From the IMG/VR virus record IMGVR_UViG_3300037508_000246, positions 1 to 41,252 of that record: a stretch of DNA of 41,252 nt; one strand, written 5' to 3'. Positions within the stretch are counted from its first letter, which is position 1. Every line of letters begins with the position of its first letter. The notes under the pieces are model-generated. The model ran no database searches, was not told where the DNA came from, and saw only the letters and a program-made list of their open reading frames with translations. This document shows positions 16,709 through 37,374 of this stretch, in pieces. Origin of the DNA: a virus. Position numbers and translations under genes: made by a program.

Positions 16709-16812
16709 TTTGCTACCTTCTTTCTTTCTGTTTAATACTGTAAGTCTATCTGTTGCCACTGACATTTTGAGGGTGTCTATGGGTTAGTTCCCTGTGAGAT
16801 ACCTCACATTTT

Positions 16813-16902
16813 CTAGCCTCTTAGTAGTCCTACTGCCCACACGATAAAGGCTGGGATTTGAATACATAGTGCAATCGCTGCGACCATTTCATACTCTGTC
16901 AT
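16813..16902 (-). CDS. 29-aa membrane peptide
   Basis: A small ORF, MTEYEMVAAIALCIQIPAFI, ending VGLLRG: one hydrophobic helix. AAAGGATAAC lies seven to eight bases before the ATG, the same site used by the divergent plus-strand genes, and the promoter at 16938-16966 points at it. First gene of the minus-strand early block. Confidence 0.5.
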   Translation of the reverse strand: MTEYEMVAAIALCIQIPAFIVWAVGLLRG

Positions 16903-16937
16903 TTTTAGTTATCCTTTCTTTAGTTTCTATACTGCGT

Positions 16938-16966
16938 ATTCTACACGCTATCACTGACAAAATCAA
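16938..16966 (-). promoter_or_regulatory. Promoter of the minus-strand small-gene block
   Basis: Minus-strand TTGATT, 17 bp beginning TTGTCAGTGATAG, then TAGAAT. The TTGTCAGT box right after the -35 is shared with the promoters at 19251 and others. Divergent from the promoter at 17132. Confidence 0.6.
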
Positions 16967-16996: not shown

Positions 16997-17012
16997 TGTG
17001 GTGTTGGTCACA
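16997..17012. promoter_or_regulatory. Degenerate TGTGA-N6-TCACA palindrome
   Basis: TGTGG-TGTTGG-TCACA, one mismatch in the left half. It lies 30 bp upstream of the minus-strand promoter at 16938-16966, where the perfect sites serve plus-strand promoters. Confidence 0.4.
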
Positions 17013-17017
17013 CCTGG

Positions 17018-17038
17018 TTATCCACATAGTTATCCACA
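17018..17038 (+). promoter_or_regulatory. Pair of DnaA boxes
   Basis: TTATCCACA at 17018-17026 and 17030-17038, 12 bp start to start. Both match the consensus DnaA box exactly. They lie in the divergent early control region. Confidence 0.7.
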
Positions 17039-17049
17039 GGCCTCGGGCG

Positions 17050-17073: not shown

Positions 17074-17089
17074 TGTGACTTAATTCACA
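17074..17089. promoter_or_regulatory. TGTGA-N6-TCACA palindrome, perfect
   Basis: TGTGA-CTTAAT-TCACA, the CRP/GlxR consensus. Its centre lies 73.5 bp before the -10 of the promoter at 17132-17160, exactly the distance seen at the next cassette. Confidence 0.65.
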
Positions 17090-17131
17090 AAAATAGTTTT
17101 TCCCAATGTCCGTTTTGTCATACTTACTGGC

Positions 17132-17160
17132 TAGTAGATGTCAGTGCCCCCTGTTATACT
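17132..17160 (+). promoter_or_regulatory. Early promoter
   Basis: TAGTAG, a 17-bp spacer beginning ATGTCAGTGCCCCC, then TATACT. The -35 is weak, as expected for an activator-dependent promoter. A second TGTCCGTTTT box starts 25 bp before the -35. Confidence 0.55.
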
Positions 17161-17196
17161 TCCAGTATAGAAAATAAAGAAAGGTTGGTAAATAAA

Positions 17197-17385
17197 ATGA
17201 CTAACACTAAAAAATGTAAATGTGAAAAAGCACATCTCCTAACTGATGTGCTAACTACTGAGGATAATCTCAGAGTAGTAAATGTCCAGAAATGGCATAA
17301 ATGCTTTAACTGTGGAAAGTTCCAAATCTCTAAGTGGATTAGACTTCACGAGTTTAGATGTAATCCTTCTTACTTCGTAAAGTAA
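17197..17385 (+). CDS. Small Cys-rich early protein
   Basis: A 62-aa protein, MTNTKKCKCEKAHLLTDVLT, with KWHKCFNCGKFQISKW and FRCNPSYFVK. CKC, CFNC and a late Cys suggest one zinc site. The ATG at 17197 follows AAAGG with the roughly 10-12 base spacing used by the other early genes. First gene downstream of the divergent control region. Confidence 0.6.
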   Translation: MTNTKKCKCEKAHLLTDVLTTEDNLRVVNVQKWHKCFNCGKFQISKWIRLHEFRCNPSYFVK

Positions 17386-17473
17386 GTAAATAAAAATCCT
17401 AGTGAGCCTCACTAAATAAGTGAGCAAATAATCTAGGTCAGCAAAACAAATTTCTTAGAAAGGAAATAAATAA

Positions 17474-17659
17474 ATGACTTACACACTAACACTAGAAACC
17501 TTCAATGGTTCTACTAAAAAAATAAACTTGTCATCTAAAGGTCAAGTTGCTGAATTTATAAATACTTATCCTGCTAAATTACCAGTAGGAATTTCAGTAA
17601 AAGTTTCTTGCGATACTCTTGGAATTCGTGGAACAATTCGTGGAAATAAAAATTTGTAA
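17474..17659 (+). CDS. Small beta-domain protein, paralogue of the gene at 15960
   Basis: A 61-aa protein: MTYTLTLETFNGSTKKINLS, GQVAEFINTYPAKLP, VGISVKVSCDTLGIRGTIRG. It matches the minus-strand protein at 15960 in length and in the C-terminal (C-D-x-L-G-I-x-G) string. AGAAAGGA lies ten bases before the ATG. Function unknown. Confidence 0.6.
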   Translation: MTYTLTLETFNGSTKKINLSSKGQVAEFINTYPAKLPVGISVKVSCDTLGIRGTIRGNKNL

Positions 17660-17671
17660 ATAAATAAAAAG

Positions 17672-17719
17672 TTTTCTACTAATAAAAAATTGGTAGAAAA
17701 TTCCCGAGGATCTCGGGGA
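17672..17719 (+). terminator. Two adjacent hairpins after the 17474 gene
   Basis: TTTTCTACTAAT (17672-17683) pairs with ATTGGTAGAAAA (17689-17700); then TCCCGAG-GAT-CTCGGGGA (about 17702-17719). The second is the fullest version of the CCCCGAG block that recurs in early spacers. Likely terminator. Confidence 0.55.
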
Positions 17720-17720
17720 G

Positions 17721-17741
17721 TTATCCACAGGCTTATCCACA
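17721..17741 (+). promoter_or_regulatory. Pair of DnaA boxes
   Basis: TTATCCACA at 17721-17729 and 17733-17741, 12 bp start to start, as at 17018. Confidence 0.7.
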
Positions 17742-17750
17742 GGTTTAAGA

Positions 17751-17766
17751 TGTGAGATTTATCACA
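17751..17766. promoter_or_regulatory. TGTGA-N6-TCACA palindrome, perfect
   Basis: TGTGA-GATTTA-TCACA. Centre 73.5 bp before the -10 at 17832, identical to the upstream cassette. Confidence 0.65.
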
Positions 17767-17808
17767 AAAATTCTTTTTAAGAATGTCCGTTTTATACACA
17801 TACTGACG

Positions 17809-17837
17809 AGTAGAATGTCAGACCCCCCTGTTATACT
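17809..17837 (+). promoter_or_regulatory. Early promoter
   Basis: A weak -35 (AGTAGA), a 17-bp spacer beginning ATGTCAGACCCC, then TATACT. Nearly identical to the promoter at 17132, with TGTCCGTTTTAT at 17784 again 25 bp before the -35. Confidence 0.55.
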
Positions 17838-17857
17838 TCTAGTATAAGAATTAAATA

Positions 17858-17919
17858 GTGGTTAGTGAGCCTAGCAAATAAGTCTAGAAATAGAATGAGC
17901 CTAGCAAATAAATAACCAC
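17858..17919 (+). promoter_or_regulatory. Structured leader RNA with duplicated internal motif
   Basis: GTGGTTA (17858-17864) pairs with TAACCAC (17913-17919), enclosing two copies of TGAGCCTAGCAAATAA (17866-17881 and 17896-17911). It lies between the promoter and the ATG at 17945. A related CTCACT-AAATA-AGTGAG hairpin precedes the gene at 17474. Confidence 0.45.
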
Positions 17920-17944
17920 ACTAAAAAGAAAGGTAGGTCAGAAA

Positions 17945-18142
17945 ATGACTACACTAGATAAAAATCAAGTAATAGAATACTTAATTGAAAATAACTTTAA
18001 TTTTCAAGATAAAATCTGCGTATTCTGCTCAACTACTTATGATCGTTGGAACGCCATATGCGTATCTTGTCGTGAGTATAAGGGTATGACTAATATAGTT
18101 GAAGCCGTAGAATACTACGGAATAGACATTCTCCCTAACTAG
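17945..18142 (+). CDS. Small zinc-ribbon early protein
   Basis: A 65-aa protein: MTTLDKNQVIEYLIENNFNF, then KICVFCSTTYDRWNAICVSCRE and a helical end. CVFC and CVSC, 17 residues apart, form a zinc ribbon. A short helix precedes it. AGAAAGG lies upstream. Function unknown; small ribbon proteins of early phage genes often bind host proteins. Confidence 0.6.
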   Translation: MTTLDKNQVIEYLIENNFNFQDKICVFCSTTYDRWNAICVSCREYKGMTNIVEAVEYYGIDILPN

Positions 18143-18150
18143 GGGGAGGG

Positions 18151-18166
18151 TGTGACTAACCTCACA
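18151..18166. promoter_or_regulatory. TGTGA-N6-TCACA palindrome, perfect
   Basis: TGTGA-CTAACC-TCACA, extended to GGTGTGA...TCACACC. It lies just after the stop of the 17945 gene and about 51.5 bp before the -10 at 18211. Confidence 0.6.
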
Positions 18167-18187
18167 CCTACCAAGCGTGGGTCTAAT

Positions 18188-18216
18188 TTGACTTTCACGC
18201 TAAAAAATGAAATAAT
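18188..18216 (+). promoter_or_regulatory. Early promoter
   Basis: TTGACT, 17 bp, AATAAT, ahead of AGAAAGGA and the ATG at 18255. Confidence 0.55.
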
Positions 18217-18254
18217 AGCACTATTAGAAAGTATCTTAGAAAGGATAACTTAAA

Positions 18255-18452
18255 ATGAAATCATATTCAATTCCAGACCTATTAGTAGGTCAGACTTATT
18301 ACCCTCGCTCTCTTGCGAGAAAATACCAATACGGAGAAATAACTTTCGCTGAAAAGCGTGAGGATATTTATCTATCTGAAGGCTATGAGGCTTTCGCAAT
18401 TCGCTTTAATGGTGACAGGTGGGCAACTGTCGCAGTAAAGGTGGCAGACTAA
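18255..18452 (+). CDS. Small early protein of unknown function
   Basis: A 65-aa protein: MKSYSIPDLLVGQTYYPRSL, ARKYQYGEITFAEKREDIYL, and RFNGDRWATVAVKVAD. The mixed alpha/beta sequence with no motif I recognise resembles small DNA-mimic or host-takeover proteins only in size. It opens a five-gene operon with overlapping or adjacent junctions to 19115. Confidence 0.6.
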   Translation: MKSYSIPDLLVGQTYYPRSLARKYQYGEITFAEKREDIYLSEGYEAFAIRFNGDRWATVAVKVAD

Positions 18453-18571
18453 TGAAATTAGACGAATTCAAGGCTCTTATTGAGAGCCAGCGCAAGGCGC
18501 AACAATTGACAAACTTAGAGAAAATCGCTAAAATAGTAAATAACACAAACACCATGAAAGGTAAAAACTAA
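18452..18571 (+). CDS. 39-aa early peptide
   Basis: MKLDEFKALIESQRKAQQLT, then LEKIAKIVNNTNTMKGKN. Predicted amphipathic helix. Its ATG overlaps the stop of the previous gene as TAATG, which supports coding by translational coupling. Confidence 0.55.
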   Translation: MKLDEFKALIESQRKAQQLTNLEKIAKIVNNTNTMKGKN

Positions 18572-18573
18572 CT

Positions 18574-18780
18574 ATGAAAACTATAACACACTCACTACAC
18601 TTCGTCACAGAATTAGACGAAGCACACCCAACCGCTAAACAATTTCTTTCTCTTGATGAGATAGAGCAAATCGCTCTACTAGAAAGTATGCTAAAAGAAG
18701 TCCTTGCGCCTGCTATCAAACCTGCTCTTGATGAAATCAATGAGGGCAATTCTTGGGCTCTACTAAAGGTGGCTGAATAA
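18574..18780 (+). CDS. Small acidic early protein
   Basis: A 68-aa protein: MKTITHSLHFVTELDEAHPT, SLDEIEQIALLESMLKEV, and a helical C-terminus ending LLKVAE. Mostly helical and acidic. Three bases after the 39-aa gene and directly followed by the next ATG, so in one operon. Function unknown. Confidence 0.6.
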   Translation: MKTITHSLHFVTELDEAHPTAKQFLSLDEIEQIALLESMLKEVLAPAIKPALDEINEGNSWALLKVAE

Positions 18781-18972
18781 ATGATGACACGAAAAGACTA
18801 TGTCAAGACCGCTGAAATTCTAAAAGCATTTAGCGAGGAAATTCACCCGCAAGTTTTTGAGGATTTGGTAGAGGAGTTTTCACAATTCTTCAAATCTGAC
18901 AATGATAGATTTGACTTCGCAAGATTTGAGAAGGCTTGCGGAATTGATGAGTTAGGACTAATTCCAGTATGA
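18781..18972 (+). CDS. Conserved actinophage small protein (MTRKDY type)
   Basis: A 63-aa protein: MMTRKDYVKTAEILKAFSEE, VFEDLVEEFSQFFKSDNDRFD, FARFEKACGI. The M-T-R-K-D-Y-V start and the D-N-x-R-F-D-x-x-R-F-x-x-A-C end form a pattern I know from many actinobacteriophage early regions. No function is established. Start at 18781, or the second ATG at 18784. Confidence 0.7.
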   Translation: MMTRKDYVKTAEILKAFSEEIHPQVFEDLVEEFSQFFKSDNDRFDFARFEKACGIDELGLIPV

Positions 18973-19115
18973 CAAATTTAATTTTGACTATCGCTATAAT
19001 TTCTTTTGGAACACTTTTCGGAATGAGTTTAATTACTCTAAGAAAATTAGAAATTGAAAATAAAAAACTTAGAAAAGAAAATGCTGAAATAAAATGGAAT
19101 CAAATAAAAGTTTGA
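18969..19115 (+). CDS. 48-aa membrane peptide with coiled coil
   Basis: MTNLILTIAIISFGTLFGMS (one membrane helix), then a charged coiled coil, LEIENKKLRKENAEIK. ATGA overlap with the previous gene supports coding. The layout (anchor plus coiled coil) recurs in the 14101 and 40635 proteins. Confidence 0.55.
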   Translation: MTNLILTIAIISFGTLFGMSLITLRKLEIENKKLRKENAEIKWNQIKV

Positions 19116-19169
19116 TTTAAAAATTTGCAACTTTAATTTAAATAGTTAGGGTTGCAAAATCCCGAGGGG

Positions 19170-19189
19170 TTTTCCACAGGTTATCCACA
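19170..19189 (+). promoter_or_regulatory. DnaA-box pair (one variant)
   Basis: TTTTCCACA (19170-19178, one mismatch) and TTATCCACA (19181-19189). They follow a CCCGAGG block and precede the palindrome at 19203. Confidence 0.6.
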
Positions 19190-19202
19190 GGGGTGTTTAA
19201 GA

Positions 19203-19218
19203 TGTGATTATAATCACT
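19203..19218. promoter_or_regulatory. TGTGA-N6-TCACA palindrome, one mismatch
   Basis: TGTGA-TTATAA-TCACT, centre 63.5 bp before the -10 at 19274. Confidence 0.6.
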
Positions 19219-19250
19219 CCAAAAATTTTCCAGATTTATGGCGTGTCGTT

Positions 19251-19279
19251 TTGATTTTGTCAGTAGAAAATGATAGGAT
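19251..19279 (+). promoter_or_regulatory. Early promoter
   Basis: TTGATT, 17 bp beginning TTGTCAGT, then TAGGAT. A variant TGTCGTTTTG lies seven bases upstream. Confidence 0.6.
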
Positions 19280-19315
19280 TACAGAGTAATAAAATGAAAG
19301 AAAGGATAACTTAAA

Positions 19316-19480
19316 ATGACAGTTATTGAAAAAATGGAAAGAATTGCTAATATTGAAAAATTAGCGAAAGAAAAATATGGTGATAACTATATTTATGGCT
19401 TATGGGGAAGCGCACAGAGTTTTCTAACAGAGGAAAACTTAAATATAATGGAAAGAGTATTTGGAAAGGAAGAAAACTAA
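19316..19480 (+). CDS. Small early protein
   Basis: A 54-aa ORF: MTVIEKMERIANIEKLAKEK, YGDNYIYGLWGSAQSFL, and a helical end RVFGKEEN. AGAAAGGATAAC lies before the ATG. It is followed one base after its stop by the next ATG. Function unknown. Confidence 0.55.
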   Translation: MTVIEKMERIANIEKLAKEKYGDNYIYGLWGSAQSFLTEENLNIMERVFGKEEN

Positions 19481-19481
19481 A

Positions 19482-19979
19482 ATGGGATTAGATATGTATA
19501 TGAGTGCTAGAAAGCACATAAATAAAATTAATTGGGATTTACTTGATCGTGATAGCGATACTAAGTATTCACAGGCTACTTATCCTCAATGGGATAATGT
19601 AGTAGATAGTGCTGGTTTGGCTACCCTCGCAGATAGAGAAGGTATCTATGGTGTAGATGTGTCAGTAAATGTCTGCTATTGGCGCAAGTGTAATCAGATA
19701 CACAATTGGTTTGTAAAGAATATTCAAGGTGGCGAGGATAATTGTGGAGAATACTATGTATCCAATACTAAGATAAGAGAATTAGAAACACTTTGTACTT
19801 TGGCTATAACTAATAAAGACCCTAATTTGCTACCGCCAAGAGAAGGATTTTTCTTTGGTGGAACAGATATTGATGAGTGGTATTGGCGAGATATTGAGGA
19901 TACTAGAAAGCAATTGAGAAGGCTAATTAATCTGCCTGAGTTTGAGGAATTGTCTTTCTACTATCAGAGTTCTTGGTAG
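19482..19979 (+). CDS. Conserved MGLDMY-type phage protein
   Basis: A 165-aa protein starting MGLDMYMSARKHINK, with SVNVCYWRKCNQIHNWFVKN, GGEDNCGEYYVS and GFFFGGTDIDEWYWRDIEDT. This combination is a common family in phages of many bacteria; its role is not established. The start at 19482 is preferred over 19461 because AAAGGAAG sits upstream and the family begins MGLDMY. The opposite strand shows no supported gene. Confidence 0.75.
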   Translation: MGLDMYMSARKHINKINWDLLDRDSDTKYSQATYPQWDNVVDSAGLATLADREGIYGVDVSVNVCYWRKCNQIHNWFVKNIQGGEDNCGEYYVSNTKIRELETLCTLAITNKDPNLLPPREGFFFGGTDIDEWYWRDIEDTRKQLRRLINLPEFEELSFYYQSSW

Positions 19980-19980
19980 G

Positions 19981-19992
19981 ACAAAACGGACA
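19981..19992 (-). promoter_or_regulatory. TGTCCGTTTT box, reverse orientation
   Basis: ACAAAACGGACA directly after the stop of the 19482 gene, reverse complement of the early TGTCCGTTTTGT box, 23 bp before the next -35. Confidence 0.4.
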
Positions 19993-20014
19993 TATTGGAC
20001 AGGGCGTGGCAGAT

Positions 20015-20043
20015 TTGGAAATGTCAGCCCTATCTGATAGGAT
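20015..20043 (+). promoter_or_regulatory. Early promoter
   Basis: TTGGAA, 17 bp beginning ATGTCAGCCC, then TAGGAT. Same class as 17132 and 19251. Confidence 0.6.
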
Positions 20044-20073
20044 TTCAGTATGAACAGAAAGAAGGAAAGAAAA

Positions 20074-20313
20074 ATGGATAAAGTAGAATACGCGTTAAAC
20101 ACAATTCGCAATTGTAATGCTTGCGAAGGTAAAGGTAATCTCTATTGGGGAATTGGAGAGGACTTTGATTTTGAGGTTTGCGAGTGTAATCCCTATGAAC
20201 TAATCTTAGATGATGACGGAGATGTAATTTGGGATAATGGTTTGCTAAGCGAGCCTGAACTAATTAAAGATTTTTTTAATCTTAGCATATTCGCAAGTCA
20301 GGAGGCTAAATAA
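20074..20313 (+). CDS. Small DnaJ-type zinc-centre protein
   Basis: A 79-aa protein: MDKVEYALNTIRNCNACEGK, GNLYWGIGEDFDFEVCECNPYE, then an acidic tail, DDDGDVIWDNGL. CNACEGKG and CEC give the CxxCxGxG...CxC arrangement of one DnaJ-type zinc centre. The start at 20074 follows GAAGGAAAG; a longer in-frame start at 20050 is less likely. Paralogue of the 36-aa ORF at 16248. Confidence 0.65.
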   Translation: MDKVEYALNTIRNCNACEGKGNLYWGIGEDFDFEVCECNPYELILDDDGDVIWDNGLLSEPELIKDFFNLSIFASQEAK

Positions 20314-20314
20314 T

Positions 20315-20593
20315 ATGGGAAGCAATTTTGCTCACGATTTAGCCCTTGCTGATAATCTTGAAATTGAAAGTCAGATAGCAATTCACCTATCTGCTAATCA
20401 CTACCCACCAATTCCACGCTCTATGGTTGCTCCTTGCGTTGAAGCCATAGACGCAGTTAATGACGCTGGACTTTGGGAGTTAGAAATACCTATGCCTGAA
20501 GGAATAACCTATAAGGGTTTGACTACCGCCCCTGCTTGGGCTATTATTGAGCAACACCACCTAAATGCGTGGCTTATTGAAAGGGAATACTAA
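20315..20593 (+). CDS. Conserved actinophage protein (PPIPRSM / HHLNAW type)
   Basis: A 92-aa protein: MGSNFAHDLALADNLEIESQ, then HYPPIPRSMVAPCVEAIDAV, LEIPMPEGITYKG, APAWAIIEQHHLNAWLIE. The PP-x-P-x-x-M-x-x-P-C, I-x-x-P-E-G-x-x-Y and HHL-x-A-W elements match a small family common in actinobacteriophage early operons. Function unknown. Confidence 0.7.
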   Translation: MGSNFAHDLALADNLEIESQIAIHLSANHYPPIPRSMVAPCVEAIDAVNDAGLWELEIPMPEGITYKGLTTAPAWAIIEQHHLNAWLIEREY

Positions 20594-20594
20594 A

Positions 20595-20810
20595 ATGGAA
20601 TACTTATACGCAATTACCGCAACCTATGATAACGATAAAGCCCCTCATTGGGTTGGTCGTTATTCTGACGCAATTAGCGCAGTTGGCGAGTGGAATAAAA
20701 TAACGGATTGGGGATTTGCTAATGAATACGCAACCTACAATTTTTCAGAGCCATCAGGTAAAATGATTACTAAGATTTTTTATCGTGACGGAAGGGTATC
20801 AGGTAAATAA
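20595..20810 (+). CDS. Small early protein of unknown function
   Basis: A 71-aa protein: MEYLYAITATYDNDKAPHWV, GRYSDAISAVGEWNKI, KIFYRDGRVSGK. A beta-alpha-beta pattern with an aromatic start. AAAGGGAA precedes the ATG at 20595, two bases after the previous stop; a longer start at 20565 is unlikely. No family recognised. Confidence 0.6.
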   Translation: MEYLYAITATYDNDKAPHWVGRYSDAISAVGEWNKITDWGFANEYATYNFSEPSGKMITKIFYRDGRVSGK

Positions 20811-21038
20811 ATGTCTGATACACTAATTTCTATGGATTACAGATTTGTAGATATTCTTAATGCTGACCAATTAGAAGTAGGAGATCTAATTGGTTTAGGC
20901 ATTATTGGTATTGTAAAAATTGTTTCAATTACTCCAACTAAAGATGGATTCGCTCTTGTCATTGATAATGAGTTTAATGAAAAAGAAGATGTTGAAATTC
21001 TTGATGATGAAAAATTTGAATTCTTTATTTTAGAATAA
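20811..21038 (+). CDS. Small acidic early protein
   Basis: A 75-aa protein: MSDTLISMDYRFVDILNADQ, LEVGDLIGLGIIGIVKIVSI, DEKFEFFILE. Beta-rich with an L-x-V-G-D turn as in small SH3-like barrels, and an acidic C-terminus. The ATG directly abuts the previous stop. Function unknown. Confidence 0.6.
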   Translation: MSDTLISMDYRFVDILNADQLEVGDLIGLGIIGIVKIVSITPTKDGFALVIDNEFNEKEDVEILDDEKFEFFILE

Positions 21039-21059
21039 AGGCCCCCGAGGCGCCCTATT

Positions 21060-21071
21060 TGTCCGTTTTGC
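21060..21071 (+). promoter_or_regulatory. TGTCCGTTTT box
   Basis: TGTCCGTTTTGC after a CCCCCGAGG block, 26 bp before the -35 at 21086. Confidence 0.45.
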
Positions 21072-21085
21072 CCTTTACGTAGGAC

Positions 21086-21114
21086 TTGATATTTTTCCTA
21101 ATTTATGATAAGAT
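21086..21114 (+). promoter_or_regulatory. Leaderless early promoter
   Basis: TTGATA, 17 bp beginning TTTTTCCTAATTT, then TAAGAT, six bases before the ATG at 21121. Confidence 0.65.
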
Positions 21115-21120
21115 TATTTC

Positions 21121-21249
21121 ATGTGGAAAAAACCTAAAGAGCAATTACGTAGATTACAAGAATTACGTAGATCTAACGCTGCCACCCCATTACGTAGTAA
21201 GAAAATTTATTCACGAAAACCCAAGCATAAAAATTTGACACAAGACTAG
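21121..21249 (+). CDS. 42-aa basic peptide
   Basis: MWKKPKEQLRRLQELRRSNA, then ATPLRSKKIYSRKPKHKN. Very basic, with Leu-Arg repeats: three copies of TTACGTAG encode the L-R-R/S steps. Predicted leaderless. Basic peptides of this kind may bind nucleic acid, but no function is known. Confidence 0.55.
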   Translation: MWKKPKEQLRRLQELRRSNAATPLRSKKIYSRKPKHKNLTQD

Positions 21250-21263
21250 AAAAATGTTATTAT
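21235..21263 (+). promoter_or_regulatory. Promoter of the GP88-type gene
   Basis: TTGACA, 17 bp, TATTAT, ahead of AGAAAGGA and ATG 21285. The -35 lies inside the end of the 42-aa gene. Confidence 0.65.
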
Positions 21264-21284
21264 AGAAGTTCAGAAAGGAACCCC

Positions 21285-22004
21285 ATGAAACTAAAACGCT
21301 CTAACGATAGAAAGGTTGCTAATGCCGTATCGCCAAATGGAAAAACCGCAACAATTGCCAACACTTTTGGACTGCCTGCTGGAAAGAATTACTCATGCCC
21401 TGGTGCCACCAGTATTTGTGAAAGTGTATGCTACGCAGGAAAACTTGAAAAGATATACAAGGGAGTAAGAGATAACCTGCTCCATAATTGGAACCTGCTA
21501 AAAGACGCAGACCATGACACTATGGAAAACTTATTGCAGGATATGATTAATGATTTTAAGATTGATTGTGATAAACGAAATGCTCCTAAACTATTCCGCA
21601 TTCATTGGGATGGCGACTTCTTCAATGATACTTATACTTTTGCATGGAAGCATGTCATTCTTAATAATACAGATATTCAATTTTGGGTTTATACTCGTGT
21701 GGCTACCGCCGCAGATATGCTAAAGGATATTGATAACCTATCTCTCTACTTCTCAACAGATAAAGAGAATAAGGATATTGCTATTAATCTTAATAAAGAT
21801 AAGGGGATTAGATTAGCGTACCTTGCTGATACCTTCGCAATTGGGCAGGCAGACTTAAAGGCAATGATAGGAAGACCTGGCGCTAAGTGTCCTGAAAACC
21901 TAAAGGCTATTCCCCTAATTGACAAACAGGGCTCCGCATGTGTAAAATGTAGTCTATGTGTCTATAACAAGGCGGACATAGTCTTCTCTGCTAAAAAGAA
22001 ATAG
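21285..22004 (+). CDS. GP88-family Cys-rich protein
   Basis: A 239-aa protein with CPGATSICESVCYAGKLE near residue 37, RIHWDGDFFNDTYTFAW near 100, WVYTRVATA, and a C-terminal CVKCSLCVYN. These match the actinophage GP88 family: a Cys cluster (C-x6-C-x3-CYA), an R-I-H-W-x-G-D-F motif and a final C-x2-C-x2-C. The Cys clusters suggest a metal or iron-sulfur site; the biochemical role is unknown. AGAAAGGA precedes the ATG. Confidence 0.8.
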   Translation: MKLKRSNDRKVANAVSPNGKTATIANTFGLPAGKNYSCPGATSICESVCYAGKLEKIYKGVRDNLLHNWNLLKDADHDTMENLLQDMINDFKIDCDKRNAPKLFRIHWDGDFFNDTYTFAWKHVILNNTDIQFWVYTRVATAADMLKDIDNLSLYFSTDKENKDIAINLNKDKGIRLAYLADTFAIGQADLKAMIGRPGAKCPENLKAIPLIDKQGSACVKCSLCVYNKADIVFSAKKK

Positions 22005-22014
22005 AAAGGGAATA

Positions 22015-22083
22015 ATGGAACTACTAATTATCTTATTAATCTTATCTACCCTGCTATTTGCGGGTATGGGTCATAGAAAGTGA
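22015..22083 (+). CDS. 22-aa membrane peptide
   Basis: MELLIILLILSTLLFAGMGH, ending RK. It is one hydrophobic helix with a basic end. GAAAGGG sits five to six bases before ATG. Its stop codon overlaps the palindrome at 22079. Short, but site and hydrophobic pattern support it. Confidence 0.45.
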   Translation: MELLIILLILSTLLFAGMGHRK

Positions 22084-22094
22084 TTTATCTCACA
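22079..22094. promoter_or_regulatory. TGTGA-N6-TCACA palindrome, one mismatch
   Basis: AGTGA-TTTATC-TCACA, centre 65.5 bp before the -10 at 22152. Confidence 0.6.
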
Positions 22095-22128
22095 AATCTC
22101 AAATAATGAGATTTTTATAGGAAAGGAT

Positions 22129-22157
22129 TTGACATTTTTCCAAAGAAATGTCATAAT
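22129..22157 (+). promoter_or_regulatory. Early promoter
   Basis: TTGACA, 17 bp beginning TTTTTCCAAAG, then CATAAT. Confidence 0.65.
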
Positions 22158-22196
22158 AATACAGTAATGAAAAACCAACAGAAAAAGGAGAAAGTA

Positions 22197-22361
22197 ATGT
22201 CAGTAGCAAACGCACTATACAAAGTAGGAGATACCTACACTTCACAAAAGTCTAAGGTGACAGGTGTTATCAAGGAAATTGTGCCAACTGCCAAAAACAC
22301 AGTAAGAGTTAAGTTAGATGTAAATGGCGCAACTCGCTGGACTACTTGGACAAGCAAGTAA
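22197..22361 (+). CDS. Small early protein, paralogue of the gene at 22964
   Basis: A 54-aa protein: MSVANALYKVGDTYTSQKSK, VTGVIKEIVPTAKNTVRVKL, ATRWTTWTSK. It aligns with the 55-aa protein at 22964 (YQLGDLFTTSKTGITGRIEK). Both look like small beta barrels that could bind nucleic acid or another protein. Start 22197 is chosen after AAGGAG; 22167 is less likely. Confidence 0.65.
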   Translation: MSVANALYKVGDTYTSQKSKVTGVIKEIVPTAKNTVRVKLDVNGATRWTTWTSK

Positions 22362-22365
22362 TCTT

Positions 22366-22410
22366 AGCCTAATGGCTAAAAGTCCTGAGTATGACTACTA
22401 AAACTGCTCA
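22366..22410 (+). promoter_or_regulatory. 3' hairpin element, copy A
   Basis: A TTAGCC-TAAT-GGCTAA hairpin, then TGAGTA (22386-22391), 13 bases, TGCTCA (22405-22410). First of six copies of the TGAGYA...TGCTCA element, each 15-60 bp after a stop codon. Confidence 0.5.
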
Positions 22411-22412
22411 AC

Positions 22413-22441
22413 TTGATTTCCTATCGTAGAAATGCTATGAT
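22413..22441 (+). promoter_or_regulatory. Early promoter
   Basis: TTGATT, 17 bp beginning TCCTATCG, then TATGAT, ahead of AGAAAGGA and ATG 22469. Confidence 0.6.
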
Positions 22442-22468
22442 TAGAAATAACCCAATAGAAAGGAAGTT

Positions 22469-22894
22469 ATGTCAAGAGGAAAAGCAATTAGCGTAAAGAT
22501 ACCTACACAGAGAGTTATCACCGCACTAGAAACAAAGTTAGCAGAACTAGAGGCTAATTACAAAACACAAGATGAGAACGAAGCAAAGTTCCAAGAAGCA
22601 CTAAAGGCTTGGAACGAGGAATTAGTAAAGTATGCTATTAGTCAAATCTCAAAAGCAGAAAATCTACGCACTAACTATCGTGAGTGGAACAAAACTCTCA
22701 ATGTTGATTTTGACATCAAGGTAGAAAGCGGAACAAACTTTCCTGCTGAACCTGAGCGTAATTTTGAGCAAATCCATAATCACAACTATCGTGAGCAGAA
22801 AGACGAAATGTCTAACGCAATTCGTATTCTGAAAATGACAGATGAGGAAGTAGTTAATACCTCAACTTACAATGCGGTTGCTCGTTATCTATAA
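22469..22894 (+). CDS. Conserved actinophage early protein, helical
   Basis: A 141-aa protein. Residues 5-75 are largely helical (TQRVITALETKLAELEANYK, then EALKAWNEELVKYA); a beta stretch DFDIKVESGTNFP follows; the C-terminus is SNAIRILKMTDEEVVNTST, NAVARYL. This pattern is familiar from actinobacteriophages without known function. A DNA- or protein-binding coiled coil is possible. Confidence 0.65.
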   Translation: MSRGKAISVKIPTQRVITALETKLAELEANYKTQDENEAKFQEALKAWNEELVKYAISQISKAENLRTNYREWNKTLNVDFDIKVESGTNFPAEPERNFEQIHNHNYREQKDEMSNAIRILKMTDEEVVNTSTYNAVARYL

Positions 22895-22910
22895 TTAGAT
22901 AATACTTTCC

Positions 22911-22933
22911 TGAGCATGAAATAAAACTGCTCA
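22911..22933 (+). promoter_or_regulatory. 3' hairpin element, copy B
   Basis: TGAGCA-N11-TGCTCA, a perfect 6-bp inverted repeat. No U-run follows and no promoter is evident before the next gene, so it may not stop transcription. Confidence 0.5.
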
Positions 22934-22963
22934 ACAAAAAACCCTAACAGAAAGGAAAAGTAA

Positions 22964-23131
22964 ATGACACTTGGAGGATACAGATACCAACTTGGTGATT
23001 TATTTACAACAAGCAAAACAGGTATTACAGGTCGCATTGAAAAGTTTGTTCCACAAACTCGTAATGTAACTAAAGTAATGTTACGCTTGGCAAATAATCA
23101 AACAAGATTTGCTATGGTAAAAACAAACTAA
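22964..23131 (+). CDS. Small early protein, paralogue of the gene at 22197
   Basis: A 55-aa ORF: MTLGGYRYQLGDLFTTSKTG, ITGRIEKFVPQTRNVTKVML, TRFAMVKTN. AGAAAGGAAAAG precedes the ATG. The Y-x-x-G-D-x-[FY]-T-[TS] and V/I-T-G-x-I-x-x-x-V-P strings are common to both paralogues, which flank the 141-aa gene. Confidence 0.6.
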   Translation: MTLGGYRYQLGDLFTTSKTGITGRIEKFVPQTRNVTKVMLRLANNQTRFAMVKTN

Positions 23132-23171
23132 TAGATGTCCCTGCCAGTGCTATAGCGAGGCATACAGTTCC

Positions 23172-23194
23172 TGAGTATGAACTAAAACTGCTCA
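23172..23194 (+). promoter_or_regulatory. 3' hairpin element, copy C
   Basis: TGAGTA-N11-TGCTCA followed by TCTTTTTTT, so this copy could terminate. A nested TGCC-GCTATAGC-GGCA palindrome precedes it near 23142. Confidence 0.5.
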
Positions 23195-23218
23195 TCTTTT
23201 TTTGCGCCCCCCGAGAAA

Positions 23219-23234
23219 TGTGATTAGGATCACA
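23219..23234. promoter_or_regulatory. TGTGA-N6-TCACA palindrome, perfect
   Basis: TGTGA-TTAGGA-TCACA, following CCCCCCGAG. Centre 51.5 bp before the -10 at 23278. Confidence 0.65.
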
Positions 23235-23254
23235 AAGCTGGTTTACGACACGAC

Positions 23255-23283
23255 TTGTATTTTTCCTATATTTTTGATAGACT
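23255..23283 (+). promoter_or_regulatory. Early promoter
   Basis: TTGTAT, 17 bp beginning TTTTCCTATATTT, then TAGACT. Confidence 0.6.
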
Positions 23284-23312
23284 TGGGTATAACCAAAAGA
23301 AAGGAACGCCCC

Positions 23313-23594
23313 ATGATAGCAACCGCTATTAAATTACAAGAAGCGTCAAGAGACGCAGTTCATGATGACATGATAATGGAAATTGTCAAACACATTGTCA
23401 GTATCAGAAATGAAGTAGATGATGAAAGTTTTATCAGAGAAATGTTTAACTATTCTGCTATGCTCTCTGCTATGACAACAACCTTAGTGACCCACGCACT
23501 ATTGACAGAGGAACAGTTAAACGACATGATGGATACCATTAAAGAAATGGATACAGTAGGAGAGGAACTCTTAAATGAATACAGAAACAACTAA
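23313..23594 (+). CDS. Helical early protein
   Basis: A 93-aa protein: MIATAIKLQEASRDAVHDDM, IVSIRNEVDDESFIREMFNY, and TEEQLNDMMDTIKEMD. All-helical and acidic. AGAAAGGA lies ahead of ATG 23313, which is preferred over an upstream start inside the control region. It overlaps the next gene by 20 bases. No family recognised. Confidence 0.6.
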   Translation: MIATAIKLQEASRDAVHDDMIMEIVKHIVSIRNEVDDESFIREMFNYSAMLSAMTTTLVTHALLTEEQLNDMMDTIKEMDTVGEELLNEYRNN

Positions 23595-24039
23595 TGAAAT
23601 AGTAGTGCCAAACCACTACAACCCAAATCAAATCGTGACCTATAAGGTTATTGATTCTGAAGCGCACGAATCAGATATTGCAAACTGGTATCCCACAGTA
23701 AAGGTTAGCGACCTTGAATGGGAATTACACCAATACCGCAGAGAAAGACGAGAACTTAACAGATATACTCAGCATGTAAACATGCTAGAGAGTCGCCTAC
23801 CTGATTACCTTGATATGGATTCAGAGGAAATCGTTGCTGATATTTGTAGTATCTTTGGATTTAATCCTACTAAGGAAATTCAATTTGAGGCTACCGCCAC
23901 AATCACAGGAACAATATTAGTTCCGTTAGATGAAATTGCTAACTTTGATGTTAGCGACATTGACTTAAATGTTTATGCTGAACTAAATTCATATGACGGA
24001 GAAGCAGATGTTGAGATAGATAATATCTATAAAGTGTGA
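23575..24039 (+). CDS. Early protein of unknown function
   Basis: A 154-aa protein: MNTETTNEIVVPNHYNPNQI, VKVSDLEWELHQYRRERREL, DMDSEEIVADICSIFGF, then a beta C-terminus, ATATITGTILVPLDEIANFD. A helical centre flanked by beta sequence. The C-terminal FEATATITGTILVP-type strand resembles that of other actinophage proteins of similar size. Start overlaps the previous gene. Confidence 0.6.
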   Translation: MNTETTNEIVVPNHYNPNQIVTYKVIDSEAHESDIANWYPTVKVSDLEWELHQYRRERRELNRYTQHVNMLESRLPDYLDMDSEEIVADICSIFGFNPTKEIQFEATATITGTILVPLDEIANFDVSDIDLNVYAELNSYDGEADVEIDNIYKV

Positions 24040-24059
24040 TAGTGGGGCTATCCAAGACC

Positions 24060-24082
24060 TGAGCATGTCTTAAAACTGCTCC
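24060..24082 (+). promoter_or_regulatory. 3' hairpin element, copy D
   Basis: TGAGCA-N11-TGCTCC, one mismatch at the end of the right arm. Confidence 0.45.
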
Positions 24083-24098
24083 ACAAAAATCTCGGGGG

Positions 24099-24114
24099 CG
24101 TGATCTTAATCACA
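24099..24114. promoter_or_regulatory. TGTGA-N6-TCACA palindrome, one mismatch
   Basis: CGTGA-TCTTAA-TCACA after CTCGGGGG. Centre 75.5 bp before the -10 at 24182. Confidence 0.6.
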
Positions 24115-24125
24115 CTTTAAGAAGG

Positions 24126-24137
24126 TGTCCGTTTTAT
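24126..24137 (+). promoter_or_regulatory. TGTCCGTTTT box
   Basis: TGTCCGTTTTAT, 33 bp before the -35 at 24159. Confidence 0.45.
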
Positions 24138-24158
24138 CCAGATTCTTAATAGTATGAA

Positions 24159-24187
24159 TTGACATTGTCACCCCCACCTGATATGAT
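24159..24187 (+). promoter_or_regulatory. Strong early promoter
   Basis: TTGACA, 17 bp beginning TTGTCACCCCC, then TATGAT. Same TGTCA box as 17132, 17809, 19251 and 20015, but with a consensus -35. Confidence 0.7.
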
Positions 24188-24215
24188 TGTCTAAACAAAT
24201 AGAAAGGAAATAAAA

Positions 24216-25226
24216 ATGGCACATGAGTTAGAAACGCAAAATGGCGTTGCTTCTTTTGCTTCATTGCGTGAGCCTGCTTGGCATGGTCTAGGCACAGTAT
24301 TCACAGATGAAAAAACCACAGCAGAAATGCTTGCTGCTGCTAATCTAAATAATTGGAATGTTAGATTGGTTGATGTTGAGATTCCAAATACTTTATCATC
24401 AGATAAAGAATATCAATATGTTGTTAGGACAAATCCTACAAATAACTCTCAGACAGATATTTTAGGTGTTGTTGGTGAGCGTTATCATGTTTTACAAAAT
24501 GAGGACTTATTCTCATTTGGTGATAATATCCTAGATGGTGGAGGCAGATGGGAAACCGCTGGCTCTATTCGTGGAGGGCGTGTTGTATTTGGCTCTCTTG
24601 CTCTTGAGCGTGAAACAGTATTAGACCCTAATGGTGTAGCGGATAAGGTAAAAACTTATTTGCTTATCAATACATCACACGATGGCTCTATTGCTATTCA
24701 AGCAAGTATAACGCCAGTGCGTGTTGTATGCGCTAACACTCTTAATCTTGCGCTTGGTTCTAAGAAGAATAAAATCAAGCAATCTTTCAAGATTCGCCAC
24801 ACACAGACCGCTAATGGTAAAGTCCAAATTGCTCGTGAGGCTCTTGGTCTTGCTAATGCTTATATGGATTCTTTTGATGTTATGGCTAAGGCTATGATTG
24901 AAAAAGAAATCACAGCGCAACAGTTTAATGATATTGTTCTTGCTGCTTATCCTAAGCCTGAAAAAGATTCTAAGGGTGCGGTAAAGAAATGGGAAAATAA
25001 AGTTGATGTTATCAATGATATTTACACAGGGCAATTTAACGGAATGATTGCTGGTTCTGCTTGGGGTGCTTTCAATGCTCTAACTGAACGCCTTGATTGG
25101 CACAGAAATGCTCGTGGTGGTTCTAACGAATCTCTACTCGCTGCTGCTTCTGGTTTTGACGCAACAATTACAGCAGAAAAAAATCGTCTGCTAGGTATTG
25201 TAAAAAATACTTTAGAATTAGTTTAA
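24216..25226 (+). CDS. TIGR03299/DUF932-like phage-plasmid protein
   Basis: A 336-aa protein: MAHELETQNGVASFASLREP, AWHGLGTVFTDEKT, GVVGERYHVLQNED, GGRWETAGSIRGGRVVFGS, LLINTSHDGSIAIQ, TPVRVVCANTLNLAL. These are hallmark strings of the TIGR03299/DUF932 family found on phages and plasmids. It is about the usual length. Proposed roles in replication or anti-restriction are not proven. AGAAAGGA lies upstream; the spacer holds a full control cassette. Confidence 0.85.
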   Translation: MAHELETQNGVASFASLREPAWHGLGTVFTDEKTTAEMLAAANLNNWNVRLVDVEIPNTLSSDKEYQYVVRTNPTNNSQTDILGVVGERYHVLQNEDLFSFGDNILDGGGRWETAGSIRGGRVVFGSLALERETVLDPNGVADKVKTYLLINTSHDGSIAIQASITPVRVVCANTLNLALGSKKNKIKQSFKIRHTQTANGKVQIAREALGLANAYMDSFDVMAKAMIEKEITAQQFNDIVLAAYPKPEKDSKGAVKKWENKVDVINDIYTGQFNGMIAGSAWGAFNALTERLDWHRNARGGSNESLLAAASGFDATITAEKNRLLGIVKNTLELV

Positions 25227-25240
25227 TCTAATTCAACTCC

Positions 25241-25263
25241 TGAGTAAGAGTATAAACTGCTCA
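25241..25263 (+). promoter_or_regulatory. 3' hairpin element, copy E
   Basis: TGAGTA-N11-TGCTCA followed by ACTTTTTTTT. A likely weak terminator. Confidence 0.5.
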
Positions 25264-25292
25264 ACTTTTTTTTAAAATCCCCCCCGAGGCCA

Positions 25293-25308
25293 TGTGATTT
25301 TTGTCACA
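25293..25308. promoter_or_regulatory. TGTGA-N6-TCACA palindrome, perfect
   Basis: TGTGA-TTTTTG-TCACA, after CCCCCCGAGG. Centre 80.5 bp before the -10 at 25381. Confidence 0.65.
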
Positions 25309-25357
25309 AATTCTTTACGATCATGTAAGATTTTTCCCAAAAATTCTTTAAGATAAC

Positions 25358-25386
25358 TTGTTTTTTTTCCCATATTTTGCTATAAT
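25358..25386 (+). promoter_or_regulatory. Early promoter
   Basis: TTGTTT, 17 bp beginning TTTTTCCCATATTTT, then TATAAT, ahead of AGAAAGGG and ATG 25411. Confidence 0.65.
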
Positions 25387-25410
25387 TTATTTACCACAGA
25401 AAGGGTAAAT

Positions 25411-25569
25411 ATGTTAGGTTATATTAGGGAAGATTTAGATGATATGGTTTATGCTCTTGATTCTGTACTTACCACGATAAATTCAGATGATGACCCATGG
25501 CTATATAACAATACATGGAGAGCCAAGGAATTTCTTCAAGGCCTATTGGCAGAAGGGTACTTTGACTAA
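25411..25569 (+). CDS. 52-aa acidic early protein
   Basis: MLGYIREDLDDMVYALDSVL, TTINSDDDPWLYNNTW, ending LLAEGYFD. Acidic and helical. AAAGGG precedes the ATG. It overlaps the 26-aa gene as TAATG, and that gene overlaps the next one the same way, so the three form a coupled operon. Confidence 0.55.
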   Translation: MLGYIREDLDDMVYALDSVLTTINSDDDPWLYNNTWRAKEFLQGLLAEGYFD

Positions 25570-25649
25570 TGGGAATGTATGATGAATCCTGGTGCTCTGA
25601 CTGTGGAGTATCTATTACCTATGGCGATACTACTTGTGAGGACTGCTAA
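25569..25649 (+). CDS. 26-aa mini zinc ribbon
   Basis: MGMYDESWCSDCGVSITYGD, then TTCEDC. Two CxxC knuckles 11 residues apart make a complete zinc ribbon and nothing else. TAATG overlaps at both ends support translation despite its size. Confidence 0.6.
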   Translation: MGMYDESWCSDCGVSITYGDTTCEDC

Positions 25650-25798
25650 TGAGCCTAGCATGGGAATTTAAAGTGACTTCTAATATGATCAGTCATATGG
25701 ATGATAATGAGGCAAGTTTATTCTTTAATGCCCTGGAAGATAGCATAGAAGAGATCTGCGGTAACTATAATGTAGAGCCATGGGAAATGCAACTGTGA
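25649..25798 (+). CDS. 49-aa early protein
   Basis: MSLAWEFKVTSNMISHMDDN, then ASLFFNALEDSIEEICGNY, ending EPWEMQL. The W-E-F-x-V-T / H-M-D-D-N-E-A pattern suggests a beta-alpha fold. Its stop codon lies inside the TGTGA palindrome at 25794. Function unknown. Confidence 0.5.
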   Translation: MSLAWEFKVTSNMISHMDDNEASLFFNALEDSIEEICGNYNVEPWEMQL

Positions 25799-25809
25799 CC
25801 AACATCACA
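25794..25809. promoter_or_regulatory. TGTGA-N6-TCACA palindrome, perfect
   Basis: TGTGA-CCAACA-TCACA, extended to CTGTGA...TCACAG. It overlaps the end of the 25649 gene and lies about 51.5 bp before the -10 at 25853. Confidence 0.65.
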
Positions 25810-25829: not shown

Positions 25830-25858
25830 TTGACAAATTCCCATATTTTTGGGAAAAT
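25830..25858 (+). promoter_or_regulatory. Early promoter with spacer palindrome
   Basis: TTGACA, 17 bp, then GAAAAT (a poor -10). The spacer carries TTCCCA-TATTTT-TGGGAA (25838-25855), a full palindrome of the TTTTTCCC half-box found in other early promoters. Possible repressor site. Confidence 0.5.
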
Positions 25859-25886
25859 AGTATTACGACAAACAGAAAGGACCCCC

Positions 25887-26639
25887 ATGCCTAATTGGGT
25901 ATTTAACGGACTAACAATAGAAGGTAATCCGTCAGAGGTCGATGACCTTGTAGCACAACTTAATAAGCCATTCAAACAAGTTAATGATTCATGGAATATA
26001 GAATCAGGACAAATGGAAAAGAAATTAACAACTTATCCAAATCCTGTATTCGCATTCTATAATATCTATAACTATATTGAGGACGGTGTTACTGAGTATG
26101 AGTATTTAGGGCAACCTGACCATAAATTACCAATGGCAGAACAAATGAAATTTGCAACCAATGACTGGTATTCATGGAATGTCCGCAACTGGGGAACTAA
26201 ATGGGAAGTTGCTGTATCCTCAGATGATAAACATCCTGAAACATATACTGAGGGGCCTACTCCTAATGGGGAGAATCTAGTAGTTTATTATAATTTCAAT
26301 ACCGCTTGGTCGCCGCCACACCCTGCCATTGCTAAACTATCTAGTCAGTATCCAACATTATTATTTACCTTATCTTATGAGGAAGAGACAGGTTGGGGTG
26401 GTGAGTGTGAGTTCTTGCGTGGTGAAATGATTTCTGATTCTGGATATGAAAATATGTGCAGAGATTGTGAAGCAACCAACACACTAGATTATTGTGAGAG
26501 TGAATGTGGTCAGATATGTGAATCGTGTAACTGGCTAGGCGAGGCAGACCTAGAGGCAGTTGCAGAATGTGATACCCATAAAGTATACTTAGACGAAGCA
26601 CACCTACCAGAATATAGAAGGGACCAACTAAATGTCTAG
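25887..26639 (+). CDS. Api92-like (DUF1281-type) protein with Cys-rich C-terminus
   Basis: A 250-aa protein beginning MPNWVFNGLTIEGN. Diagnostic Api92-like strings: WNVRNWGTKWEVAV, then YYNFNTAWSPPHPAIAKLS and FTLSYEEETGWGGEC. These suit the ferredoxin-like fold assigned to that family. A Cys-rich C-terminus follows (CRDCEATNTLDYCESECGQI, CESC), probably binding zinc. Start at 25887 after AGAAAGGA; the longer frame from 25830 crosses the promoter. Confidence 0.8.
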   Translation: MPNWVFNGLTIEGNPSEVDDLVAQLNKPFKQVNDSWNIESGQMEKKLTTYPNPVFAFYNIYNYIEDGVTEYEYLGQPDHKLPMAEQMKFATNDWYSWNVRNWGTKWEVAVSSDDKHPETYTEGPTPNGENLVVYYNFNTAWSPPHPAIAKLSSQYPTLLFTLSYEEETGWGGECEFLRGEMISDSGYENMCRDCEATNTLDYCESECGQICESCNWLGEADLEAVAECDTHKVYLDEAHLPEYRRDQLNV

Positions 26640-33544: not shown

Positions 33545-33661
33545 ATGGACAAGGGTAGATTTATAGTTTGTGATTTATGCAATAAAGAAATTGAAGTGCG
33601 TTGGGGGATCTTTGCTCATCAGACACTTTCTCGTCATTTAAAGGAGCATGGCAATGGCTAA
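33545..33661 (+). CDS. 38-aa C2H2 zinc finger
   Basis: MDKGRFIVCDLCNKEIEVRW, GIFAHQTLSRHLKEHGNG. C-x2-C followed by L-S-R-H-L-K-E-H makes a C2H2 finger, though the spacing from Cys to His is longer than the classic 12. Leaderless start. It overlaps the next gene, whose Shine-Dalgarno AAGGAG is inside this ORF. Confidence 0.6.
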   Translation: MDKGRFIVCDLCNKEIEVRWGIFAHQTLSRHLKEHGNG

Positions 33662-34454
33662 GGGTAAACCAAAAAAGATAGTAGACAAACCAACATCTGG
33701 GCATAGCAATAAAGAAACAGTTAGCATTGGTTGGTGTGATAATGGAATGGTAGAAGGAAGATTTGCCACAGGAATTATTGCAACAATGACAGAAGGACAG
33801 AAGGCTGGAATTAATGTAGTAAACCATCTTCGTGTAAATGGTAATCAAATTGCTAGACAAAGACAAGCCTTGTTTGATGCATGGGAAGCAATGGGAACAG
33901 ATTGGTTATTGTGGGTTGATTCAGATATTATTGTTACCCCGCAAGTTTTTAAAATGATTTGGGATACAGCAGATAAGATTACGAAGCCAGTGGTTTCTGG
34001 ATTATATTTTGTTAGCAATGAAAACGAACAAACTCTTATGGAGCCTTTGCCTGCTATGTATAAAGAAACAGGCGATGAATTTTTAACTCAACCTATTCAT
34101 CCATTTCCACAAAATCAAGTAATACCAGTAGACATTACTGGGTTTGGTTTAATTCTTATGCACAAGTCTGTTATTCCAAAGGTAAAAGAAATAGCACAGG
34201 GACATTCTGTGTTTGGAGAAAAACAGAATCCTGGCAAGAAGTTTGTTAGTGAAGATGTTGCATTTTGTCGTTACCTGAAAAAAGCGGGTATTCAAATATA
34301 TGTCCACACTGGTGCAATGGTTCAACATATGAAGACATTTTCTTTTGATTTTAATTACTATTATGTATACTGGCGTGGAGTACAAGATAAGATAGTTAAC
34401 AGAAAGCCTAGGCCAGGAGCAGCACAACCAGAACAAGAGCAACCGCCCAAGTAG
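33654..34454 (+). CDS. Glycosyltransferase, GT-A fold (GT2-like)
   Basis: A 266-aa protein: SIGWCDNGMVEGRFATGIIA, NQIARQRQALFDAWEAMGTD, WLLWVDSDIIVTPQVF (D-S-D is the metal motif), PVVSGLYF, GFGLILMHKSVI and SEDVAFCRYLKKAGIQIYVH. Start at 33654: AAGGAG lies eight bases before it but only two before ATG 33648. C-terminal 20 residues are proline- and glutamine-rich. Confidence 0.8.
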   Translation: MAKGKPKKIVDKPTSGHSNKETVSIGWCDNGMVEGRFATGIIATMTEGQKAGINVVNHLRVNGNQIARQRQALFDAWEAMGTDWLLWVDSDIIVTPQVFKMIWDTADKITKPVVSGLYFVSNENEQTLMEPLPAMYKETGDEFLTQPIHPFPQNQVIPVDITGFGLILMHKSVIPKVKEIAQGHSVFGEKQNPGKKFVSEDVAFCRYLKKAGIQIYVHTGAMVQHMKTFSFDFNYYYVYWRGVQDKIVNRKPRPGAAQPEQEQPPK

Positions 34455-34459
34455 TTGCT

Positions 34460-34473
34460 TATAATGATATAAT
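34460..34473 (+). promoter_or_regulatory. Overlapping -10 elements before the 318-aa gene
   Basis: Two TATAAT hexamers (34460-34465 and 34468-34473), the second with a TGA extension; AAGGGG and a TTG start follow. Confidence 0.5.
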
Positions 34474-34491
34474 GGTTTAAAAGGGGTAATC

Positions 34492-36113: not shown

Positions 36114-36125
36114 GATGTTTATAAA

Positions 36126-36839: not shown

Positions 36840-37374
36840 AACTTTTTGGGATAATGCTGCATCAGATCCCGAAGTAAGATATAAATATATTGCAGATGAG
36901 TGGGCATCCACTGAAAACTTTTTAGATCTTATAGAAAATAATAACAATCATTGGAATAATGTTCTAGAGATTGGGTGTGGAATAGGAAGATTACTTGATC
37001 CTCTTTCAGAAAAATATAAAGAATGTAATTTCTATGCAATAGATATCTCTGATGAGATGATAAAACTTGCACCTAAAAAAGATAATATAAAGTATCAAGA
37101 GGTTGCAAATAATCTTGACCTAGTATATTCGATGTTGGTTTTTCAGCATATTGAACATCAAGAAAAGATTAACTATATAAAACTTGCCTACGATAACTTA
37201 AAAAACGGTGGCAACATATATTTTCAATTTGTTATTGGAGAAGAAAATTCACCATACTCTTATCAAACATCTAAATTTGAAATTGAAAAAATGTTAATCA
37301 GTATAGGATTTAATAATTTAGTTTTTGAAAATCACATGCATCCGCAATGGATGTTTGTCAGGGCTACAAAATGA
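36826..37374 (+). CDS. Class I SAM-dependent methyltransferase
   Basis: A 182-aa protein: NNVLEIGCGIGRLLDPLSEK (motif I), FYAIDISDEMIKLAPKK, LVYSMLVFQHIEH, KLAYDNLKNGGNIYFQFVIG. The E-I-G-C-G-x-G loop is complete. Start 36826 after AGGTG; an ATG 18 bases upstream is possible. Ends by ATGA overlap with the next gene. Substrate unknown. Confidence 0.82.
   Translation: MNHAKTFWDNAASDPEVRYKYIADEWASTENFLDLIENNNNHWNNVLEIGCGIGRLLDPLSEKYKECNFYAIDISDEMIKLAPKKDNIKYQEVANNLDLVYSMLVFQHIEHQEKINYIKLAYDNLKNGGNIYFQFVIGEENSPYSYQTSKFEIEKMLISIGFNNLVFENHMHPQWMFVRATK

Follow-up and report, generated by a model that had tools for sequence, protein, structure and literature searches.

Analysis of a virus record suggests that the phages of an uncultured freshwater family have as many as a dozen near-perfect candidate CRP sites. 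These palindromes (TGTGA-N6-TCACA) are probably operators for the host's own Crp, a protein of the GlxR/Mycobacterium tuberculosis Crp (Mtb Crp) type, which in helical phase with the early promoters would activate transcription for phages that encode no such protein. The window analysed is the entire record, a 41-kb fragment (41,252 nucleotides) in which tail, Gp88, DUF932, SSB and glycosyltransferase families are annotated; its right arm (33648-39971) contains a cluster of glycosyltransferase and methyltransferase genes.

When a single mismatch is allowed, a motif scan of the window yields 11 TGTGA-N6-TCACA sites (seven perfect and four with one mismatch), against an expectation of approximately 1.88, and this number was never attained in dinucleotide shuffles of the window (0/100). 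When all inverted repeats of 5-bp arm length and spacer 0-12 are ranked, TGTGA with a spacer of 6 comes first in the window with seven copies, the next having four. Neither chance nor low complexity explains the sites, as judged from the shuffles, from comparison with other spacers and with the reversed pattern, and from the ranking of all palindromes. The initial annotation listed nine sites, six perfect and three with one mismatch, plus a weaker tenth at 16997: all ten coordinates are exact on rescanning and the split is correct, 16997 also having one mismatch, but the perfect site at 16793 was overlooked. Its description of the sites as lying between genes or across a stop codon agrees with the position of all seven exact sites outside ORFs (7/7) and of 22079 over the stop of a small ORF.

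Each site was paired with the highest-scoring promoter of sigma-70 or extended -10 type 30-120 bp downstream, and distances are measured from site centre to -10 centre. The perfect site at 16793-16808 (TGTGAGATACCTCACA) and the one-mismatch site at 16997-17012 (TGTGGTGTTGGTCACA) face leftward promoters with predicted -10 elements TAGACT (16743-16748; distance 55 bp) and TAGAAT (16938-16943; 64 bp), respectively, the first of these -10 elements being read from the sequence, so that the region is divergent and its two arms share the array; the activator-like placement upstream of early promoters in the initial annotation is refined in this respect. Between these two sites, a membrane-type peptide of 29 aa is predicted from a reading of the sequence (16817-16906, minus strand). 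The perfect sites at 17074-17089 and 17751-17766 precede rightward promoters with -10 TATACT (17155-17160 and 17832-17837), each at 76 bp; the 73.5 bp given previously for both, from the centre to the first base of the -10, is correct. The first rightward early gene is an ORF of no assigned function (17197-17385, plus strand; 62 aa from ATG). Further to the right are a perfect site at 18151-18166 (-35 TTGACT at 18188, -10 AATAAT at 18211-18216; 55 bp); a one-mismatch site at 19203-19218 (-10 TAGGAT at 19274-19279; 66 bp); an early gene that matches the Gene product 88 family (PF17338; 21285-22004, plus strand); the one-mismatch site over the small-ORF stop at 22079-22094 (-35 TTGACA at 22129, -10 CATAAT at 22152-22157; 68 bp); and a perfect site at 23219-23234 (-10 TAGACT at 23278-23283; 54 bp). 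A one-mismatch site at 24099-24114 (-35 TTGACA at 24159, -10 TATGAT at 24182-24187; 78 bp) precedes the DUF932 gene, identified by family match (phrog_1221; 24216-25226, plus strand). The last two sites are perfect, at 25293-25308 (-10 TATAAT at 25381-25386; 83 bp) and at 25794-25809 (-35 TTGACA at 25830, -10 GAAAAT at 25853-25858; 54 bp), with a DUF1281/Api92-like gene (family match; 25882-26639, plus strand) 3' of the latter.

Other elements are found near the sites. The -10 of several early promoters is part of an inverted repeat (TTATACT...AGTATAA type; 17154-17170 and 17831-17848) that might serve as an operator covering the transcription start. Perfect DnaA boxes (TTATCCACA), frequently in pairs, are located just 5' of candidate CRP sites (17018-17042, 17721-17745 and 19174-19196), and the same is true of the relatives. 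Sites 17074, 17751 and 24099 are separated from their promoters by TGTCCGTTTT and CGTGTCG, possibly recognized by a second regulator; CGTGTCG and TGTCCG, between site and promoter, hold preferred distances of their own from the -10. An intergenic hairpin, CCTGAGnATG...AAAACTGCTC, is repeated near 22386, 22910, 23170, 24061 and 25240, and GAGCA-N11-TGCTC is present in 176 copies in the relatives.

Two sets of relatives were assembled: 80 viral contigs found with the DUF932 protein of the window (83-97% identity), and 80 further loci found with the Gp88 protein, some of them on contigs of the first set. No close DNA relatives were found among isolated phages. Exact palindromes number 306 at spacer 6 in the first set versus 0-5 at each other spacer (0-14), and 364 versus 0-6 in the second (spacers 0-12); TGTGA with spacer 6 is the commonest 5-bp inverted repeat of the 80 relatives, the next having 176 copies (spacers 0-12). 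The composition of the spacer is non-random: it begins with T, ends with A and has A or T at its centre (T-n-T/A-A/T-n-A), which indicates a CRP-type consensus and supports the CRP/GlxR assignment made initially. The initial annotation would have been contradicted by sites equally frequent inside genes; only 29 of 313 exact sites in the relatives fall within ORFs, against a coding background of 52%. In each large relative (17 contigs, 62-120 kb), all perfect sites are held by a single early block. The palindrome is missing at the DUF932 promoter in many relatives.

The distance between site and promoter is quantised. Redundancy was cut to 321 greedy representatives with less than 75% identity (single-linkage clustering had merged nearly all cassettes), and a good promoter was found for 141 of these. 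Distances in this non-redundant set of relatives peak at 44, 54-55, 65 and 75-76 bp from the -10 (the third peak spanned 65-66 bp before the reduction), with a period of 10.4-10.5 bp (R = 0.63, n = 141; Rayleigh p ~1e-24, a nominal value because the representatives are not fully independent); the observed R at 10.5 bp was reached by none of 2000 jittered control sets. No 10.5-bp phase results when DnaA boxes (R 0.13-0.18) or an RBS-like word (R 0.10) serve as the anchor at the same loci in the same procedure. The promoter core (TTGA, TGTCAG, TGn, TAnaaT) is identical in all four distance classes, and the palindrome shifts by whole turns. Boxes resembling a -10 at 24-25 bp seemed to form a further class but were mostly spurious matches within the 44-bp class and were discarded. 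Reverse-side promoters in the family are at exactly 55 bp in 26 of 44 cases, like that of site 16793. Six rightward sites of the window deviate from the family phase by no more than approximately 1 bp, and the other three are about 2.5-3 bp off (22079 and 25293 by ~3 bp, 24099 by ~2.5 bp). The activator-like distances proposed initially are thus upheld by helical phasing across the family, and the phased geometry, as read from sequence, is that predicted for an activator touching RNA polymerase rather than a repressor.

This arrangement resembles the class I CRP promoters of Escherichia coli, in which the site is also upstream of the -35, at helically phased positions about one turn apart. Class I sites of E. 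coli are centred at -61.5, -71.5 and -82.5; those of the phages would be centred at about -53.5, -64, -74.5 and -85 relative to predicted starts, assumed to lie 7 nt after the -10. By these predicted starts, the phage sites would be offset by ~2-3 bp from those of the E. coli class. The phage promoters, as read from sequence, also differ in an extended -10 with a TGTCAG element.

Profile searches of large relatives led to the rejection of a phage-encoded CRP: the cNMP-binding domain PF00027 was found in 0 of 17 and HTH_Crp_2 above cut-off in 0 of 25, contrary to the initial suggestion that the phage might encode its own regulator elsewhere. The bacterial match to the DUF932 alignment is to one assembly, an Actinomycetota MAG, and the host assignment of the window's lineage rests on this one 4.7-kb contig, which is itself of phage origin and bears one perfect site; PF00027 has no match in the assembly that holds it. 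From this assignment we infer as host a family of small Actinomycetota genomes (0.9-2.2 Mb), which from genome size and habitat we take to be the Nanopelagicaceae. A PF00027 protein is present in 47 of 61 genomes of this family. All 15 proteins read are GlxR-type Crp and possess ASRETVNKALADFA, the recognition helix of Mtb Crp and GlxR, and the one host-family Crp compared finds its best PDB matches in structures of Mtb Crp and GlxR (E ~1e-77). Of possible binding proteins, host Crp is thus the most probable, and we infer that it binds and activates at the sites.

The 61 genomes of the candidate host family contain the perfect motif three times in all, one of these being on the phage contig, but it is present in 64 of 79 genomes drawn from the wider class. 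In one host-family genome, spacer 6 is depleted (9 sites with at most one mismatch, versus 14-43 at other spacers), and GTGA-N6-TCAC is rarer than its reversed control in ten of ten genomes. Depletion of exactly spacer 6 would be expected if stray binding by a protein resident in the cell were selected against. The connection to cAMP drawn in the initial annotation is unsupported, because class III adenylate cyclase (PF00211) was found in none of the 61 host-family genomes, the Corynebacterium glutamicum control being positive. Common Crp, absence of this cyclase and avoidance of perfect Crp sites together describe the host-family genomes (G018-G078).

Scans of viral contigs revealed arrays of the same palindrome in unrelated phages of GC 44-48% (L284 type), located 10-11 bp ahead of TTGACA, with the geometry and phase of the 44-bp class. 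This second site-bearing lineage of freshwater actinophages comprises L284, L415, L406 and others, together with OX376640 and OX376641, to both of which the L284 terminase is 83% identical. The latter two are LanE43-AprE7 and LanE43-AprF5 (phages E7 and F5), which were isolated on Ca. Planktophila (PMC10202952). E7 and F5 have only two exact sites each at spacer 6, and none at other spacers of 0-12. No clear palindrome excess over control is seen in 11 isolated DUF932 phages (ten infect other Actinomycetota, one a methylotroph), so that the sites are not a general trait of DUF932 phages. Absence of the palindromes from related phages, which the initial annotation would have counted against the regulon, is therefore the case for distant isolated phages but not for the close family, which carries them.

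In the explanation that we consider probable, a Crp dimer would bind upstream, at 44, 54-55, 65 or 75-76 bp from the centre of the -10, share a helix face with RNA polymerase, and recruit or activate the polymerase at sigma-70 extended -10 early promoters in a class I-like manner. With Crp so positioned, the phage would start its early transcription units by means of an activator already in the cell, supplying none itself. Against this explanation stand the ~2-3 bp offset from the E. coli positions, the three window sites that are out of phase, the relatives without a palindrome at the DUF932 promoter, a host assignment based on one contig whose assembly has no PF00027 match, and the presence of only two exact sites in each of E7 and F5. 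The same promoters might be activated by a phage-encoded, non-CRP DNA-binding protein that recognizes the palindrome, and the many early genes without family match could include one; we regard this as unlikely, since the inner bases fit the CRP consensus, an unrelated phage lineage has the same site at the same phase, and avoidance of exactly spacer 6 in the host family points to a host protein of this specificity. Many repeated intergenic palindromes recall the stoperators of cluster A mycobacteriophages, as if the sites were phage repressor operators for stoperator-like immunity. Stoperators are asymmetric, however, and the phage sites are phased upstream of the -35 instead of overlapping the promoter, at distances quantised by helical turn, which leaves this reading very improbable.

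Titration is a further conceivable role, as the phage has more perfect sites than the 61 host-family genomes together and might act as a sponge that draws Crp off the host genome. A sponge needs no promoter phasing, intergenic preference or fixed distance, and there is little likelihood that this is what the sites are for, although titration could still be a side effect. It is hardly credible that the sites are replication-origin or partition repeats: perfect DnaA boxes do lie 20-50 bp 5' of many of them, but the sites are phased to promoters and the DnaA boxes are not.

Activation by host Crp would be in keeping with known regulators that have the motif TGTGA-N6-TCACA in common with the phages, namely GlxR of C. 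glutamicum and Mtb Crp (Rv3676), whose recognition helix the candidate host family shares. GlxR activates ldhA from an upstream site with this motif (PMC7999487), and upstream binding by Mtb CRP is associated with activation (PMC4117774). The sites of these two regulons are in host genes, whereas those of the phage family are in early promoters, the host family being nearly without perfect sites and class III cyclase not having been found in it. Host CRP control of phage genes already has precedent: in coliphage T1, where host CRP likewise acts on phage promoters, cAMP-CRP represses pir, dam and recE (PMC6737242). T1 is a case of repression, whereas the geometry described here predicts activation of many early units. 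Cluster A stoperators, too, are operators repeated many times along an actinophage genome; the present sites differ from them in being palindromic, upstream of promoters and CRP-like. A limited literature search gave no earlier description of a phage family with a phased array of multiple CRP activator sites, and the predicted CRP regulon, activating, phased and spanning phage lineages, appears to be new.

A broader proposal, which we offer tentatively and consider rather doubtful, is that streamlined freshwater actinobacteria exclude perfect Crp sites from the chromosome, leaving them almost only in phages, and that host Crp, in cells lacking a class III adenylate cyclase, is an activator largely independent of cAMP that several unrelated phage lineages have come to need for early transcription. 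If host Crp does activate the phage promoters, a single host activator would be needed for the early genes of phages whose hosts are probably the most abundant bacteria of fresh water, and this single-point dependency would recur in at least two phage lineages. The phage sites would then offer a route to the study of Crp in hosts whose own Crp targets are unknown, and the phased sites may serve as a set of natural variants for working out how spacing governs activation in Actinomycetota.
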